Assembly (NCBI RefSeq): GCF_900111195.1
Contig: NZ_FOGL01000002.1
Coordinates: 124,001 to 188,000, forward strand
DNA: 64,000 nucleotides
Reading direction: 5' to 3'
From: Gracilibacillus ureilyticus
GTDB taxonomy: Bacteria > Bacillota > Bacilli > Bacillales > Amphibacillaceae
The notes under the pieces were generated by a model. That model did no database searches. It was not told the DNA's origin and was given only the letters and a program-made list of their open reading frames with translations. Of this stretch, positions 8,922 through 39,224 are shown piece after piece. Position 1 is the stretch's first letter. Every line of letters begins with the position of its first letter. Made by a program: the position numbers and the translations under genes.

Positions 8922-10511
8922 GTGGGCGGATATAGAAGACAATCGTTAAGGAGACAATTTACCATCAGAGTGCTTCTGGTAATGTTAATTGTTGTACTGA
9001 TTACTGGAGCATTCCAACTATATTTTATTAATGATCAAATACAGAAGGATATCGAAAAGCAAGGAGATATTATTGCGAGCAGTATTGAACAGGGGATTAA
9101 GGAGACGCAGGTAGCAAGTGAAGCGATTGAGCATCAGATTGATCTAAATCTGCTGTCCCTCTCGAGGTATATTGGCGAGTTGCTAGGTGATCAAAGTATT
9201 GATGAGATAACAAACGATGAATTACGCTTGATCAAAGAGGAACTTGGATTAGCCGGAATTTCATTAGTAGTTCATGATGCGAGTGATGACATTGTTGTGG
9301 CAAAGTCGACAGACCCGGAAGAAGTCGGCTACAGTTTAAAACAATTTCCCGGAGTTTATGAGAATGTAATGGCAATTTTAAATAATCAGTTACCACCAGC
9401 AGCGGAGACACTCAGTTATTATACAGAAGGTGCGTATATTCTTCCTGTGGCACAGTCGGGGTCACATGAAGGGGAACCGGTCTTCTATAAATATGCCTAT
9501 TATCATGAACCGGGAACAGATTATGTGATTGATGCCTTTATAGAGGCGAATGAAATGAATAAGTTCACCAGTGAAGTTGGACCAGATGCGTTAATTGATG
9601 AAGTAAACAAGGCAAATCCTTATGTGCTCGAATTAGCTGTATTAGATCCGCTTGTATTTGAGGATCCCAGTCTGGAAGGGGGGCTTTATCCTCCTAATAA
9701 AAAAATCCTGTACGGGGACTACACATTCTCCCAGGAGAGAGACTCAGAAACGCTCATAAATATGATAAAACAGCCAGAACAGGTTTCATATAATGTGAAG
9801 GCGGATGGGGAAAAAGTTTACAAATTATTTATTCCTGCAGATACAGGTGAAGTAATTTACATTGCGTTGGACTACGGCGAGCTGAGCGGCCCGTTGTACA
9901 GGCATTCTATCTTATTAGTTATTGCCGGACTGATTTCCATAGTATTACTGTTTGTACTGACTGCAAGGTTCTTTCACCGTGTCTTCCTCAATATTCAGGG
10001 AATTAAAGAGCAAGTTCAAATGCTGGAAACTGGTGATTTCACAGCAAGAAGTAATTTAAAAGATAATAATGAGTTCGGCCAGCTTTCCGAAAGTGCCAAC
10101 AAAATGGTAGAAACATTAAACAGTGTGCTGGAGGATACGAATAAAAAGGCACACCAGACCCAGCGGTTAGCGGTGCTGTTAGAAGCAGATGCAGCGAAGT
10201 CTGTAGAAAAAATGTATACATTATCAATGGAAAAAACAGCCCAGGTGCGCGAACAGTTAGAAGATTTCAATGATTTTCTTGATATGTTAGAAGATTATAT
10301 GAAAAAGACAGAGCCAAGTTCTCATGGGAGTTCAGAAGAAATCTATGAAAAAATTAACAAGATGCGCGAAATGGCAAAAAACAGAACGGCATCCACCACT
10401 GATACGACACTGGCTCTCGCTGATTTAATGAAATCTTTACATGGCCAGTCTTCGGAGCTCTCTAACATAGCAAACAGCCTGCTTGAACAAATGGCACGCT
10501 TTAAATTGTGA
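8922..10511 (+). CDS. HAMP-domain receptor resembling a chemoreceptor without the signalling tip
   Basis: Membrane sensor of 529 aa. TM1 is about residues 14-34, an extracellular domain of about 290 residues follows, TM2 is about 329-351 and HAMP about 350-405. The last residues (SELSNIANSLLEQMARFKL) look like the C-terminal end of a methyl-accepting chemotaxis protein. However, only about 125 residues follow HAMP, and the invariant MCP hairpin tip (Q.NLLALNAAIEAARAGE.GRGFAVVA) is absent. No kinase, cyclase or other output domain is visible. The GTG start follows the ligase stop by one base, so it belongs to the TRAP operon and may sense the same substrate (inference). Confidence 0.75.
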   Translation: MGGYRRQSLRRQFTIRVLLVMLIVVLITGAFQLYFINDQIQKDIEKQGDIIASSIEQGIKETQVASEAIEHQIDLNLLSLSRYIGELLGDQSIDEITNDELRLIKEELGLAGISLVVHDASDDIVVAKSTDPEEVGYSLKQFPGVYENVMAILNNQLPPAAETLSYYTEGAYILPVAQSGSHEGEPVFYKYAYYHEPGTDYVIDAFIEANEMNKFTSEVGPDALIDEVNKANPYVLELAVLDPLVFEDPSLEGGLYPPNKKILYGDYTFSQERDSETLINMIKQPEQVSYNVKADGEKVYKLFIPADTGEVIYIALDYGELSGPLYRHSILLVIAGLISIVLLFVLTARFFHRVFLNIQGIKEQVQMLETGDFTARSNLKDNNEFGQLSESANKMVETLNSVLEDTNKKAHQTQRLAVLLEADAAKSVEKMYTLSMEKTAQVREQLEDFNDFLDMLEDYMKKTEPSSHGSSEEIYEKINKMREMAKNRTASTTDTTLALADLMKSLHGQSSELSNIANSLLEQMARFKL

Positions 10512-33004: not shown

Positions 33005-33580
33005 ATGGAAAATCAGCTTATTCTTGCCTCTTCATCTCCAAGAAGGCAGGAACTTCTGAAACAGGTAAAAATCCCGTTCACCGTTAGAATTCCTGCTGTA
33101 GATGAGTCACTTAATAAGACATTAGATCCCCATGAGAAAGTGGCACAACTGGCACTGTTAAAAGGAAGGCATGTAATGATAGAGAATGAGAAAGAAGTAG
33201 TTTTGGCTGCAGATACTATTGTAGCTTTCCAAAACAGGATTTTTGAAAAGCCGGAAAATAAAGAAGAGGCGAAAGAGATGATTACAGCATTAAGTGGAAA
33301 AGTACATGAGGTATACACAGGGGTAGTGATAAAGAGTAATCAGAAAGAAAGGGTATTCGTGGAAAAAACAGAAGTAGAATTCTGGCAATTGCATGATGAG
33401 GAGATCAATTCTTATATATCGAGTGATGAACCATATGACAAGGCAGGCGGTTATGGTATTCAAAGTATTGGTTCGATGTTTGTGAAAGGAATAAAAGGTG
33501 ACTATTATAATGTCGTGGGACTACCGGTTTCCTGGGTAGTGAGAGAATTGCAGAAATTCTTAGTATATCCTGATTTTTAA
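33005..33580 (+). CDS. maf: Maf nucleotide pyrophosphatase
   Basis: Hydrolyses non-canonical or modified nucleoside triphosphates (dTTP/UTP class) and in B. subtilis can inhibit septum formation. 191 aa. Signature SSSPRRQELL (9-18), acidic motif DES (33-35) and catalytic Asp70 in LAADTIV, then 'GKVHEVYTGV' and 'YDKAGGYGIQ'. Ribosome site AGAGGGG. In B. subtilis maf neighbours comC's locus (spoIIB/radC region); here it is head to head with comC. Confidence 0.94.
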   Translation: MENQLILASSSPRRQELLKQVKIPFTVRIPAVDESLNKTLDPHEKVAQLALLKGRHVMIENEKEVVLAADTIVAFQNRIFEKPENKEEAKEMITALSGKVHEVYTGVVIKSNQKERVFVEKTEVEFWQLHDEEINSYISSDEPYDKAGGYGIQSIGSMFVKGIKGDYYNVVGLPVSWVVRELQKFLVYPDF

Positions 33581-33644: not shown

Positions 33645-33698
33645 TTAACAATAACTTAACATAAAGTTATCAGAAAATTTATAGTTCATCGGTATAAT
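33645..33698 (+). promoter_or_regulatory. PhoP-type box and -10 element
   Basis: Four hexamers occur every 11 bp: TTAACA (33645), TTAACA (33656), TTATCA (33667), TTTATA (33678). This is the direct-repeat layout (TTAACA-like hexamer plus 5 bases) bound by PhoP dimers in Bacillus. A -10 TATAAT lies at 33693-33698, so the repeats span about -60 to -22, the activating position. Confidence 0.8.
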
Positions 33699-33733
33699 TG
33701 CCCTCATAGGATAATAGGAGGAGGCAATTATTA

Positions 33734-35920
33734 ATGAATTTTAAAAAGAAACTGATCACAGGAGCCGCAGCTGCTTCTATATTTTTCACGGCAGCCGTTC
33801 CATTTAATGTACTGGCAGAAGAACCGCCATTCTTTCAGTATGAAGGGAAAGATATTTTATCGGTCTCACAAATAGGGCAATATGACAGCGGTTTAGGAGA
33901 AGGCGGCACGGAAATTATGGCTTATGACCATTCAACAAGAACTGCATTTGTCACAAATGGGACAGCAAAAGGATTTGATATTCTGCAATTTGGAGATTTA
34001 GTATCTGGGGAATTCAAGGATATTACAACATCGAAAAGAGTATTGCTTTCATCCTTTGGAATTAATGGTGTTGATGATATAACAAGTATTGCGGTAAATC
34101 CAGTGATGGATGTTGTAGCAATTACGGCTGTAAGTGACCCGAAGACCGATCCCGGTTATGTCATATTTACTAATAAAAAAGGGGAATACATAACTCATGT
34201 ACAAGTAGGGGCATTACCGGATATGGTTACATTTACACCAGACGGTAACAAAGCTATTGTCGCTAATGAAGGGGAGCCGAGCGATGATTACTCTATGGAT
34301 CCACCAGGTTCTATATCCATCATTCATGCTGGTCTCAGTGTGAACACACTGGAGTTTACAGAATCGCAACTTGATGAGAAAGTGCGGACAGATTCGGAAG
34401 GAACTGTTTTAGAACAGCTGGAACCTGAATATGTTACTGTATCAGATGACAGTACCACTGCGTATGTGTCCTTACAGGAAAATAATGCGATTGCAACAAT
34501 AGATTTAGTAAATGAAGAAATAATTGAAGTAAAAGGGCTTGGTGTCAAGGATCATTCTGTCTCTGGTAATGAACTTGATGCGATAGAAGATGGTGAGGCC
34601 GACTTAGCGAAACAGCCATTGCTTGGTTTTTATATGCCTGATGCAATTGATACAATTGAATACAATGGGAAAACATTTATTCTAACACCAAATGAAGGGG
34701 ATGCCCGTGACTATGAGGCATACTCTGAAGAAGGCAGCGTTGGAGATATTATCGATCAAATCGATTTAAATGCTGAATATTACCAGGGCTATACACAGAA
34801 AGAACTGGATACAGCAGTAGAAAACGGCTTACTGGATGAATTGGAAGGTACTGATATTACGTTAGAACAAGGTGAAAATTCAGAAGGTGTATATGAGGCT
34901 CTATATTCATACGGTGGCCGCAGTTTCTCCATTTTTGATGCCGAGACGATGGAGCTTGTTTACGATAGCGGCAGCGACTTTGAAGAAATTATTTTAGAAG
35001 CTATTCCAGAGCACTTTAACACCAATAATGATGAGTTAGAATATGATGGCAGAAGTGACAGTAAAGGTCCAGAGCCGGAAACAATTATAAGTGGAGAAAT
35101 TGATGGGAGCACATATGCTTTTGTAGCACTTGAGCGATTTAGCGGAATTATGATATATGATTTATCGAATCCTGTCGCACCAGAATTTGTTTCATTAATC
35201 TCCAGTCGTGACTTCAGTGAAGATGTGAAGGGTGATGTATCTCCAGAAGGGCTTCAATTTATTGCGGCAGAAGACAGCCCTACCGGAAAACCGTTACTGG
35301 CAGCAACACATGAGATTTCGGGTACTGTTGCCATATATGAATTTAGTGGTGGCATCCCGGAGGCGATTGAGACGATAACATTTAATGATATTCAGGGGCA
35401 TTGGGCACAGGATTCCATTGAATCTCTAGCAACACAAGGAATTATTTCAGGTTATTCTGCATTTGAATATGGCCCGGAAAAAAATATATCACGTGGTGAA
35501 GTTGCTGTATTGATCGACCGTGCGCTTGAGTTGGAAAGCAATACGAGTGATTCTCTGTTATTTAAGGATGTAGAGGACACCTGGTATAAGGACAGTGTTG
35601 ATAAGGCAGTTAACGCAAATCTATTAGCAGGATATGATGACAAAACGTTCCGACCTCATGAAGAAATGTCCCGCGAAGAAATAATTACAGTAATTGCACG
35701 TGCATATGAGTATGCGGAAGACGTGAAAACAGATGTTAATACAGAAGAAATCCTTGCTGATTTCGTTGATGCAGAAAGTATTTCTGACTGGGCCAGACAA
35801 AATGTAGCTGAAGCAATAGAAGCGGGCCTTGTTTCCGGTGTGAAAGAAAATGAAATACAGCCAGAAAAGAATGTAACAAGAGCAGAAGCAGCAGCGATGA
35901 TCGAGCGGTTGCTGCAGTAA
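33734..35920 (+). CDS. Choice-of-anchor I / phytase-like beta-propeller surface protein with three SLH domains
   Basis: 728-aa exported protein. Signal peptide (about 1-28, ..NVLA), then a choice-of-anchor-I beta-propeller (about 40-540; 'GEGGTEIMAYDHSTRTAFVTNG', 'ITSIAVNP', 'FTPDGNKAIVANEGEPSDDY', 'TPNEGDARDYEAYSEE', 'PEGLQFIAAEDSPTGKPLL'), then three SLH domains (about 550-725) that bind pyruvylated cell-wall polymer. Some proteins with this propeller are atypical alkaline phosphatases or phosphodiesterases, and the Pho box in front supports a phosphate-scavenging role (inference). Strong GGAGGAGG site. No dockerin or sortase signal. Confidence 0.85.
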   Translation: MNFKKKLITGAAAASIFFTAAVPFNVLAEEPPFFQYEGKDILSVSQIGQYDSGLGEGGTEIMAYDHSTRTAFVTNGTAKGFDILQFGDLVSGEFKDITTSKRVLLSSFGINGVDDITSIAVNPVMDVVAITAVSDPKTDPGYVIFTNKKGEYITHVQVGALPDMVTFTPDGNKAIVANEGEPSDDYSMDPPGSISIIHAGLSVNTLEFTESQLDEKVRTDSEGTVLEQLEPEYVTVSDDSTTAYVSLQENNAIATIDLVNEEIIEVKGLGVKDHSVSGNELDAIEDGEADLAKQPLLGFYMPDAIDTIEYNGKTFILTPNEGDARDYEAYSEEGSVGDIIDQIDLNAEYYQGYTQKELDTAVENGLLDELEGTDITLEQGENSEGVYEALYSYGGRSFSIFDAETMELVYDSGSDFEEIILEAIPEHFNTNNDELEYDGRSDSKGPEPETIISGEIDGSTYAFVALERFSGIMIYDLSNPVAPEFVSLISSRDFSEDVKGDVSPEGLQFIAAEDSPTGKPLLAATHEISGTVAIYEFSGGIPEAIETITFNDIQGHWAQDSIESLATQGIISGYSAFEYGPEKNISRGEVAVLIDRALELESNTSDSLLFKDVEDTWYKDSVDKAVNANLLAGYDDKTFRPHEEMSREEIITVIARAYEYAEDVKTDVNTEEILADFVDAESISDWARQNVAEAIEAGLVSGVKENEIQPEKNVTRAEAAAMIERLLQ

Positions 35921-35929
35921 TTATTGGAT

Positions 35930-35956
35930 GAGCGCCTTAGCTGATAAGGTGCTCTT
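35930..35956 (+). terminator. Terminator of the SLH surface protein gene
   Basis: GAGCGCCTTA (35930-35939) pairs with TAAGGTGCTC (35945-35954) with one G-T wobble, followed by TTCATATTTTA. Confidence 0.65.
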
Positions 35957-36266
35957 CATATTTTATATTTAAATTATTCCAGGAAAAATGGAAATCTATT
36001 TATCTGTTGGAAGAGCCATATAACTGTTGGTAATACCCTATAGTGGAGGTAATTAAATGTAACTTTGCTAGACCCCTTTTTTTCTTTCCGTTTACTGTTA
36101 TACTGTAGTAGTGGCTAAGAATTATGGGTGTTAGAACACCCTTAACGAATTAGCATCACATAGATTTAGAACTTATTTTCTATTTTTCTTATACGTACAT
36201 AAAATTAGATTGCTAGTTACTAATTAGTTGTACAAAAATAAAAAAACATCAGGGGGTACCTTAGTT
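35957..36266 (+). promoter_or_regulatory. S-layer gene leader and promoter region
   Basis: 310 bases without a gene. An extended -10 TGTTATACT is at 36096-36104. Just after the expected start, GGGTGT (36126-36131) pairs with ACACCC (36136-36141), a small 5' hairpin of the kind that stabilises abundant mRNAs. The untranslated leader would be about 155 bases, long as in many S-layer genes, ending with AGGGGGT before the ATG. Confidence 0.5.
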
Positions 36267-39224
36267 ATGGGTCGAACATCAAAGAAAAGTAAAAAAATAT
36301 TTGCATCAACAATGACTGCAGCAGTAGTTGCATCTGTTGTTGCACCAACTACAGGATTTGCAGCATCTAATTTTACAGATGTACAAGCAGATAATTTCTA
36401 TTATGATTATGTTACTGCATTGTCAGAAGCTGGAATTATCCATGGTAAGCCAGACGGATCATTTGATTTATATGGTGCTGTAAAACGTTCAGAAGCAGCA
36501 AAAATGATCGCTGGAATTATTGGACTGGATACAGAAAGTGCACCATCAGCTGATTTTACTGATGTGAAAGAAGATTTCTGGTATACAGATTCTATCAACG
36601 CTCTTTATGCAGCAGAACTTATCCATGGGGTAAGCGAAACTGAATTTGCTCCGGATGCTTCATTAACTCGTGCGCAATTTGCTAAACTTGTAGTAGATGC
36701 ATACGAATTAGAAATAGATGAAAATGCTGAAGTACCATTTACTGACCTTGAAGAAGGTGCTTGGTATGAGAAATATGTTAAAACACTTTATGCTAACGAA
36801 TTAATCGCTGGTACAACACTTACAACATTCTCACCAGACAAACCAGTAAAACGCGCAGACTTTGCAAAACTTCTAACAGACACAGACTGGAAACTAGGTA
36901 CTACTTTAGAAAAGCCAAACGCTGAAGAGACAGTAGCAGTGGAAAGTGTCGTTGCAATCGATGATATGACTATCGAAGTAACATTTGTTAATGGTGAAGT
37001 TGTTGAAGTTACTCTTGAAGAGGCATTAGTTGATGGTGAAAATGAAGTTACTTTCACTGTTGAAGGCGTAGAATATACTGAAACAGTAAATTATGAAGTA
37101 CCTGCACTGGAAATTACTTCTGTTAGTGCAATTGATGACATGACAATCGAAGTAATATTCGATAATGGTGAAGTTGTTGAAGTCACTCTTGAAGAAGCAC
37201 TAGTTGATGGAAAAAATGAAGTTACTTTCACTGTTGATGGTGTAGAATATACTGAAACAGTAAATTATGTAAATTCTGAAGTACCTGCACCGGAAGTTGC
37301 TTCTGTTAGTGCAATTAATGCTAATGAAGTAAAAGTAGAGTTTAATACAGAAGTGCTTGAATCTTTAACTGAAACAATAAGTAACTACACGTTTGAGACT
37401 GAGGCACCAGCCGTAGCAAGTACTATTACACCAACTGATATTCAATTACAGGAAGATGGCAAAACTGCAATTGTTCGCTTTGCTGATGGTGATTTAGTTA
37501 ATTCTACAACATACAAAGTAACTGTGGAAAACGTGTTAACAACTGACCATGAAGAAGTTTCAAAATTCGAAGACACATTCTTGTTCAGTGGTGACAACAA
37601 AGCTGCTTCATTAAAAACTGCTAAAGTAGAAGGTTCAGATCTTCTTTTAACTTTTGACGAAGAAGTTGACGTCACAAATGCGGTTTTAAAAGTTGATGGA
37701 GTGACTGTATCAGTAGCAGCTGCAACAGAACCAACAAATGCTGGTGAGTATGCTTATAAAGTAGATGTGACTGGCTTAGCAGCTTTAGAAAAAGGTACAC
37801 ACAACCTTACTCTTGTTGGTGTTGTAGATTTTGCCGGTAACGAATCTAACACATTGACAACTTCATATACAGTAAATGAGGATACAACTGCACCAACTAT
37901 TGATAAAATTGAGGCAGTTGACAATGATACTTTCAAAGTTACTTTCTCTGAATCAGTTACTCAACCAAGTGTAAAAGTACTTAAGGGTACTACAGAATTT
38001 GCAGCTACACCGGTGGAAGCTGGCCCTGCAAAAGAATACACATTTGATGTGGCTGCAACAGCTGGTGATAATGATCTTTATGCTGAAGATGAAGAAACTG
38101 TTAATCTTTCAGTAGAAATTTCTAATTACAAAGATGGCGTTAACTTATACGGAGACACTGTTGAACAATCTGTTACGTTATCTCAAGACACAGATGGACC
38201 TGTATTATTAAACAGCTCATTAAATACAGTGGAAGAAAGTACGGGTAATACTGTAGTAACTGTACCTTTTAAAGGTGATGATGTTACTGTTGCTGATACT
38301 ACTAAGGTTAAAGTAATTGATCCAGATGGAATTGAGCTTACTCCAGCCACAGTGCATGAGACTAATGCTGTACCTACAGATGATAGTTCAGAAGTTGCTG
38401 TTACTGTTACTGGAACACCAAAAGAAGGTACCTACACTGTAGTGTTTGAAGCTGGCGCAATTATAGATGGTAATTCTAATGATAATGATAAAATCACTAC
38501 AACTGCTGACTTTAGTGCTGAAGAGTCTTATTTAACATTTGGTGGTACTATAACTCCAGGTACAAACAATGCTATTGAAGTAGATTTTGGTGTTGAAGTA
38601 TCATCAACTGCTTTAAACGTAGACAACTATAAGTTAGATAATGCTGCACTTCCAGAAGGTTCAACAGTTGTTTATACGGATGCTTCAAAAGAGATCGTTG
38701 AAGTACGTCTTCCTGAATCTTTTGTAGTTGTTTCTGATGCAGATTATAAGTTTGAAATTACTCAAGATGTTAAAACTGCTGCTGGCGACATCATTGTAGC
38801 AGATCAGACTGCTGATACAAAAACAAATCATGCAGAAAACATTACGCTTACTGATAATGTATCACCTGAATTAGTTTCTGCACAATTTGCAGTTGACTCT
38901 ACAGATGACTCAACTTCTGATAGTATTGTATTAACATTTAGTGAAGAAATTTCTTTAAATGGCGGAAATGACTTATCAGATGACCTTGTATTAAAAGTTG
39001 GTTCGAATGAGGTAGATCTATCTGCGGTAGCTGGTACTGTTGCAGGTAATGAATTAACTATTACTATTCCAGAAATGAATATTAGCCAAACTACTACTAT
39101 TACAATTGTATCTGAAGGATCTGAGAACGAAGCAGTTGAGATTACTGATGCATCAGCTGGTTCTAATGCCGTAATACCTACTACTATAAATGTTAATGGC
39201 GTTGTAGTTGTAGTTACTCCTTAA
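36267..39224 (+). CDS. S-layer protein with N-terminal SLH domains
   Basis: 985-aa acidic exported protein, very likely the main S-layer subunit. Signal peptide of about 33 residues (..VAPTTGFAA), three SLH domains (about 35-210) for anchoring, a tandemly duplicated 58-61-residue module (227-345), then a long series of beta-rich Ig-like modules to the C-terminus, with no cysteine noticed. The start at 36267 is chosen for AGGGGGT 9 bases upstream; an upstream in-frame codon at 36228 lacks a site. T-rich third positions and regular codon use (many GAA, ACT, GTT) suggest high expression. Confidence 0.88.
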   Translation: MGRTSKKSKKIFASTMTAAVVASVVAPTTGFAASNFTDVQADNFYYDYVTALSEAGIIHGKPDGSFDLYGAVKRSEAAKMIAGIIGLDTESAPSADFTDVKEDFWYTDSINALYAAELIHGVSETEFAPDASLTRAQFAKLVVDAYELEIDENAEVPFTDLEEGAWYEKYVKTLYANELIAGTTLTTFSPDKPVKRADFAKLLTDTDWKLGTTLEKPNAEETVAVESVVAIDDMTIEVTFVNGEVVEVTLEEALVDGENEVTFTVEGVEYTETVNYEVPALEITSVSAIDDMTIEVIFDNGEVVEVTLEEALVDGKNEVTFTVDGVEYTETVNYVNSEVPAPEVASVSAINANEVKVEFNTEVLESLTETISNYTFETEAPAVASTITPTDIQLQEDGKTAIVRFADGDLVNSTTYKVTVENVLTTDHEEVSKFEDTFLFSGDNKAASLKTAKVEGSDLLLTFDEEVDVTNAVLKVDGVTVSVAAATEPTNAGEYAYKVDVTGLAALEKGTHNLTLVGVVDFAGNESNTLTTSYTVNEDTTAPTIDKIEAVDNDTFKVTFSESVTQPSVKVLKGTTEFAATPVEAGPAKEYTFDVAATAGDNDLYAEDEETVNLSVEISNYKDGVNLYGDTVEQSVTLSQDTDGPVLLNSSLNTVEESTGNTVVTVPFKGDDVTVADTTKVKVIDPDGIELTPATVHETNAVPTDDSSEVAVTVTGTPKEGTYTVVFEAGAIIDGNSNDNDKITTTADFSAEESYLTFGGTITPGTNNAIEVDFGVEVSSTALNVDNYKLDNAALPEGSTVVYTDASKEIVEVRLPESFVVVSDADYKFEITQDVKTAAGDIIVADQTADTKTNHAENITLTDNVSPELVSAQFAVDSTDDSTSDSIVLTFSEEISLNGGNDLSDDLVLKVGSNEVDLSAVAGTVAGNELTITIPEMNISQTTTITIVSEGSENEAVEITDASAGSNAVIPTTINVNGVVVVVTP
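36945..37301 (+). repeat. Tandem duplication inside the S-layer gene
   Basis: Unit 1 (36945-37118, 58 codons) and unit 2 (37119-37301, 61 codons) encode nearly identical modules: AIDDMTIEV, GEVVEVTLEEALVDG, NEVTFTV, GVEYTETVNY. Nucleotide identity is also high, so the duplication is recent. A third, diverged copy starts at 37302 with SVSAINANEV. Confidence 0.9.

Follow-up and report, generated by a model that had tools for sequence, protein, structure and literature searches.

A Pho box before the gene for an SLH-anchored choice-of-anchor I propeller protein in Gracilibacillus ureilyticus

The locus, its promoter and its product

Within the 64-kb window (the whole stretch of Gracilibacillus ureilyticus DNA analyzed here), a Pho box lies between a Maf-family gene (33005-33580; TIGR00172) and an open reading frame that begins with an ATG and encodes a secreted propeller protein (Table 1). 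The box consists of four hexamers at 11-bp steps, TTAACA (33645-33650), TTAACA (33656-33661), TTATCA (33667-33672) and TTTATA (33678-33683), and a 9-bp spacer (33684-33692) separates the last of these from the −10 element. Direct reading bore out the hexamers, their spacing, the 9-bp gap to TATAAT and all coordinates given in an earlier note on this DNA. The terminator-like hairpin 3′ of the gene suggests that the propeller gene is transcribed as a single gene.

Table 1. Features of the propeller gene and its promoter; positions are those of the 64-kb window.
Feature	Position	Strand	Basis
Pho box, four PhoP hexamers	33645..33683	+	sequence, score 22.5/24
−10 element TATAAT	33693..33698	+	9 bp past last hexamer, sequence
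Shine-Dalgarno AGGAGGAGG	33716..33724	+	by eye
CDS, 728 aa, secreted choice-of-anchor I propeller with three SLH domains	33734..35920	+	ORF, domain matches
Sec-type signal peptide, aa 1-28	33734..33817	+	by eye from translation
Choice-of-anchor I beta-propeller, aa 57-536	33902..35341	+	PF22494, AlphaFold2 model, propeller matches
Three SLH domains, aa 548-724	35375..35905	+	PF00395, 3 stretches
Intrinsic-terminator-like hairpin	35930..35954	+	10 pairs, T-rich tail; consensus match only

The identification of the gene product as a choice-of-anchor I propeller with three SLH domains held in the domain searches (PF22494, NF038117, PF00395). Its propeller domain matches the family over its full length and above both cut-offs (PF22494, E 1.7e-99, 334.3 bits against a cut-off of 32; NF038117, 471.6 bits against 300), and it shares with its relatives the family's changing anchors. 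Its own genome has no second family match (1 at E ≤ 0.001). The C-terminal region matches the SLH domains of the S-layer protein Sap (phmmer, 4.4e-13), and the genome encodes a CsaB pyruvyl transferase (TIGR03609, 299.8 bits against a cut-off of 213.1); CsaB makes the wall ligand of SLH domains. The product of the next gene downstream (36228-39224), a large protein whose N terminus carries three SLH domains (PF00395), is probably an S-layer protein.

An AlphaFold2 model of residues 29-537, built from 30 aligned sequences, reached a pLDDT of 92.5 and a pTM of 0.93. The fold matches listed by Foldseek and VIA are propellers of many kinds and include YncE, a propeller also solved with DNA. When the domain profile was compared with solved structures, an archaeal propeller surface-layer protein was matched at 7e-9 and two other chains at 0.08 and 0.72; this profile sequence search returned no solved enzyme related to the choice-of-anchor I domain.

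The Pho box in its own genome and across the order

We scored candidate sites with a simple consensus made for this analysis (TT[ACT]A[CT]A four times at 11-bp steps, a T at position 5 counting half, maximum 24). The box of the propeller gene is the best site in the window; the next independent site on either strand scores 19, and the sole other 20 is the same box shifted by one repeat. Markov sequence (2 Mb, one strand) gave no site of 21 or more. Among 396,807 bp of background from the same genome (both strands), no site reached 21.5, one scored 21.0 and five positions reached 20, so that nothing in this background equals the 22.5 of the propeller gene. Two of those five background sites precede a metallophosphoesterase-like ORF (21.0) and a UgpB-like binding-protein ORF (20.0), both matched below the NCBIfam cut-offs, which suggests that the score picks out genuine phosphate genes. 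These two sites stand at 9574 and 11106 of one stretch of contig C35 (L196:9514-12627), where the metallophosphoesterase-like ORF, taken from its ATG at L196:9646, is separated from the UgpB-like ORF by a 202-aa ORF with no NCBIfam match. This stretch is probably another Pho operon of the genome.

The earlier note would have been contradicted by a genome that lacked PhoPR. The genome encodes a PnpS-type PhoR histidine kinase (514.4 bits against a cut-off of 400), whose gene is adjoined by that of an OmpR-type regulator matching PhoB models below their cut-offs, both downstream of isocitrate dehydrogenase. It also carries pstS, pstB and phoU, all over cut-offs and with two permease-like ORFs seen by eye between the pst/phoU genes, and a classical alkaline phosphatase (PF00245); a search of this one genome gave no PhoD match. 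The pstS box scores 23.0, close to the 22.5 of the propeller gene and with the same 9-bp geometry; a ugpC-like gene, whose match is below the UgpC cut-off, scores 20.5 (a register one repeat later is scored equally), and the alkaline phosphatase scores 19.0. Each of these three has a −10-like hexamer exactly 9 bp past the last repeat (TATGAT, TATGAT and TAGGAT, respectively), which supports the activating geometry claimed for the propeller gene. The phoPR genes themselves have no strong box by this score (best 17.5). The genome's own pstS promoter has the arrangement of PhoP~P-activated Bacillus promoters, with four hexamers at 11-bp steps and 9 bp to the −10 element, as does that of the propeller gene; unlike pstS promoters, the box at the propeller gene serves an SLH-anchored propeller of an uncharacterized family.

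Of 159 genomes from the taxonomic family, 35 have an NF038117 match over the cut-off, as do 50 of 397 genomes sampled in the order. From the 76 distinct genomes over the cut-off, we removed the genome under study and one whose match falls in two pieces, and for the remaining 74 loci recorded the best PhoP score in the 520 nt before the domain, a measure independent of start-codon choice. A comparable box precedes the gene in 56 of 74 relatives with a threshold of 19.5 and in 62 of 74 with a threshold of 18.5, though these loci are not independent, being related by descent; identity of the aligned domains to that of G. ureilyticus goes down to 38%. In-gene stretches of equal length gave 0/74 at both thresholds, and the opposite strand gave 1/74 and 2/74. 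Within the taxonomic family the box is present at 32 of 33 loci at 19.5 and 33 of 33 at 18.5, and the rest of the order has it at 24 of 41 loci at 19.5 and 29 of 41 at 18.5. By the same measure, control loci drawn from 60 genomes for each gene scored 19.5 or more at 30 of 30 pstS loci and at 0 of 30 polA loci (2/30 at 18.5); polA serves as a coding-type control because, by the usual gene order, the DNA before it is largely coding. The spacing is conserved as well: among the 62 relatives' sites scoring at least 18.5, 36 place a −10-like hexamer exactly 9 bp past the last repeat, and every other gap from 4 to 18 accounts for at most 8. On the background and Markov scans and this footprint in relatives, we reject chance as the origin of the box.

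Eighteen of the 74 relatives fall below 19.5, and some of these (L040, L042, L073, L074, L078, L079, L083) are near chance. Longer ORFs allowed the true start to be used for two of them: the gene of L040 (as L084) rises to 19.0, and that of L078 (as L089) stays at 15.5, and some of the misses are real. Seven loci (L073, L074, L075, L078, L079, L081, L083) have box scores of just 15 to 18; there the gene may have dropped out of the regulon or be controlled in another way. Two further family matches look broken in their assemblies, the two-piece match set aside above (G082:C10:57663-59080) and a partial match with two stop codons (G366:C6:91404-92048).

The family in other phyla: regulation, partners and conserved residues

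Named relatives were taken as the best 80 of at least 593 matched stretches. Among these the nearest is Gracilibacillus oryzae (84%), and among the matches listed the choice-of-anchor I family also occurs in several other phyla. Azotobacter vinelandii, an organism grown in the laboratory, is among the Pseudomonadota that carry the gene (L124). From the same 80, sorted by title, 21 Pseudomonadota and 6 cyanobacterial loci were used to look for the Pho boxes of other groups. For the former we scored the pair CTGTCAT-N4-CTGTCAT, with p taken against Markov sequence; CTGTCAT is the E. coli PhoB motif (PMC4415409). Weights for both groups followed textbook motifs and were set after a prior scan with slightly different weights and start picks. 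A PhoB-type box precedes 10 of the 21 Pseudomonadota homologues at p ≤ 0.05 and 7 of 21 at p ≤ 0.01 (Fisher 1.3e-9 over the 21), with 0/21 on the opposite strand and 0/21 in the gene body at p ≤ 0.05; the other 11 lack such a box at p ≤ 0.05. The cyanobacterial Pho-box motif is a TTAACC-type triple repeat, which was found at p ≤ 0.05 before three of the six cyanobacterial genes and within none; this result is only suggestive, since the opposite strand gives 2/6. Regulation by PhoP, as proposed in the earlier note, is therefore well supported by the PnpS-type PhoR, the box at pstS, the footprint in 56 of 74 relatives and the PhoB-type boxes, and we regard membership of the propeller gene in the Pho regulon as very likely.

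Anchors vary among relatives that have a box: SLH in L098 (score 23), LysM in L107 (21.5), CWB2 in L088 (23) and a sorting signal in L084 (19.0). Of the 80 loci, 78 (all but L158 and L171) provided ORFs, some of which run off their contigs; PF22494 was matched in all 78, 5_nucleotid_C in 10, SLH in 9 and Metallophos in 7. One fusion, the 2464-aa product of L084, joins an endonuclease/exonuclease/phosphatase-family domain, the propeller, Metallophos and 5_nucleotid_C domains and the sorting signal, with the sorting-signal model over its cut-off and the ExeM/NucH model below. Domains of UshA/NucH-type surface nucleotidases are fused to the propeller in some relatives, which the UshA and ExeM/NucH NCBIfam models match below their cut-offs. 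As judged from their domains, these fusions place the propeller among enzymes predicted to take phosphate from DNA and nucleotides; unlike UshA/NucH-type nucleotidases, the G. ureilyticus protein has no nucleotidase domain.

A plasmid of Falsirhodobacter, an alphaproteobacterium, encodes a protein (L260:1631-3787) with the annotation ‘esterase-like activity of phytase’. Residues 296-379 of this protein give a partial match to choice-of-anchor I and precede a Phytase-like domain, a hint that the two families are related or have exchanged sequence. Choice-of-anchor I genes also lie on plasmids of Acinetobacter and Azotobacter (L261, L262), and because members are plasmid-borne the family may move between hosts.

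The 30-sequence alignment has 65 invariant columns. In 39 named relatives, 46 of these stay conserved at 97% or more, and Asp or Glu accounts for 18 of the 46 residues conserved in both sets. Blades were assigned by reading the alignment and predicted strands. Six acids (Glu60, Asp163, Glu232, Asp303, Glu449 and Glu505, full-length numbering) lie within three residues of strand starts in the model, and a second series (Asn75, Glu179, Glu249, Glu321, Glu467 and Glu527) follows these acids by 15 to 22 residues. We read the conserved acids as a putative metal-binding pocket at the propeller's mouth. The propeller domain of the G. ureilyticus protein has no Cys, and no His is among the domain's invariant residues in the aligned sets; its putative site therefore differs from that of the Sphingobium phosphotriesterase.

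A candidate surface phosphohydrolase and the family it belongs to

From its regulation, fusion partners and pocket residues, we read the protein as a phosphohydrolase. It is fairly likely to have phosphoesterase activity, and the explanation that we favor, with middling confidence, is that this Pho-regulon gene encodes a metal-dependent phosphoester hydrolase tethered to the wall. The sequence of events would run as follows. When phosphate is low, the PnpS-type PhoR would phosphorylate PhoP, and PhoP~P would bind the four 11-bp repeats just 5′ of the −10 element and recruit RNA polymerase, as the common box and geometry suggest for the genome's own pst operon. The signal peptide would direct the product out of the cell, and the three SLH domains would fix it in the wall, presumably on the pyruvylated wall polymer that the CsaB gene implies. 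There, the acidic blade residues kept across phyla would bind metal ions, and the propeller could split phosphate from organic phosphates outside the cell; the freed Pi would enter by Pst, and glycerol phosphate perhaps by the Ugp-like transporter. Of the earlier description of a cell-wall-tethered phosphate-scavenging enzyme, the tether is backed by the SLH domains and the CsaB gene, and the enzyme is plausible from regulation, fusions and acidic residues. We could not confirm the accompanying statement that atypical phosphatases belong to this propeller type: no activity is named in the PF22494 or NF038117 entries, and our searches found no activity data for any member of the family.

The main alternative to a phosphohydrolase is a non-catalytic binder under Pho control, which we consider rather unlikely. 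Here, the propeller would bind calcium, phosphate or polymer and act in adhesion, DNA capture or wall repair, the last when cells short of phosphate reduce their teichoic acids, and catalysis would fall to separate or fused nucleotidases. Many propellers only bind, the matches to YncE and to the archaeal surface-layer propeller are of a kind with such a role, the SLH, LysM, CWB2 and sorting-signal anchors give it a wall location, and fusion to real phosphatases would suit a substrate-binding helper. Yet the acidic, Asn, Arg and Lys residues conserved across phyla read more like the pocket of a metal enzyme than like a binding surface, and 68 of the 78 named relatives have no 5_nucleotid_C domain, although contig ends cut some of these ORFs short. 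Hydrolysis of another bond under Pho control, as by a lactonase or carboxyl esterase, is improbable: Lactonase (PF10282) is also matched by 3 of the 39 relatives in one set (best E 1.5e-5), and the plasmid protein of Falsirhodobacter joins a partial family match to a domain named for esterase-like activity of phytase, but the gene's regulation and the phosphatase and nuclease domains fused to the propeller speak for phosphate. That the repeats are chance or a non-PhoP motif, such as the site of another OmpR-family regulator like WalR, is very improbable indeed: OmpR-family boxes have 11-bp spacing in common and our consensus is a simple one, but the same grammar stands at the genome's own pstS with its 9-bp gap and at every pstS control of relatives, no background site equals the score, and nearly half of the Pseudomonadota homologues have PhoB-type boxes.

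Among known propeller phosphatases, PhoX has a calcium-containing metal site (PMC11098088). The G. ureilyticus protein gave no PhoX-family match in Pfam at 0.001, and its residues 1-545 gave none up to E 5, a search in which HMMER filters drop most matches above about 0.1. Beta-propeller phytase likewise has a calcium-containing metal site. Neither family is among the Pfam matches of the G. ureilyticus protein or the 50 listed Foldseek and VIA fold matches, which leaves room for a common fold.

The atypical alkaline phosphatase PhoA-aty was first found as a phosphatase in freshwater Synechococcus, and that of a coccolithophore alga is phosphate-induced; the protein has no known domain, carries conserved Asp/Glu motifs and a Pro-Asp motif, and in its dinoflagellate form matches algal, marine animal, cyanobacterial and proteobacterial proteins (PMC4548154, PMC6156274, PMC11098088). 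From these descriptions, we tentatively liken PhoA-aty (Synechococcus PCC 7942, algae) to choice-of-anchor I; S. elongatus has an NF038117 match, not necessarily over the cut-off. Bacterial and green-algal relatives are reported for MSP130, a protein of sea urchins, molluscs and brachiopods whose function is given as unclear or not determined (PMC4536745, PMC6368272). MSP130 may be a member of the choice-of-anchor I family, and that choice-of-anchor I, PhoA-aty and MSP130 are one family is a lead. Tentatively, choice-of-anchor I proteins could be a separate group of metal-dependent phosphohydrolases, Pho-controlled in several phyla and variously anchored, with PhoA-aty and MSP130 as branches and MSP130 derived from a phosphate-scavenging enzyme.

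Open-licence PMC articles yielded no literature on the choice-of-anchor I family by name, nothing that links S-layer homology to the Pho regulon, PhoP or alkaline phosphatase in Bacillus and, as judged from the listing for ‘choice-of-anchor’ with phosphate, none on Pho control; the portions of the cyanobacterial phosphatase literature available to us held no domain link to the family. Pho control is new information on this family. The same switch as at phosphate-uptake genes is apparently carried by many relatives, other groups included, and this uncharacterized propeller family therefore probably helps cells scavenge phosphate. The control operates under two, perhaps three, Pho-box grammars, and for a widespread family with no named function its conservation gives a specific and cheap functional test. 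If the protein is active, it would be one more surface phosphatase to look for in phosphate-limited environments, and if the proposed link to MSP130 is true, a question about a biomineralization protein would become an enzyme assay.
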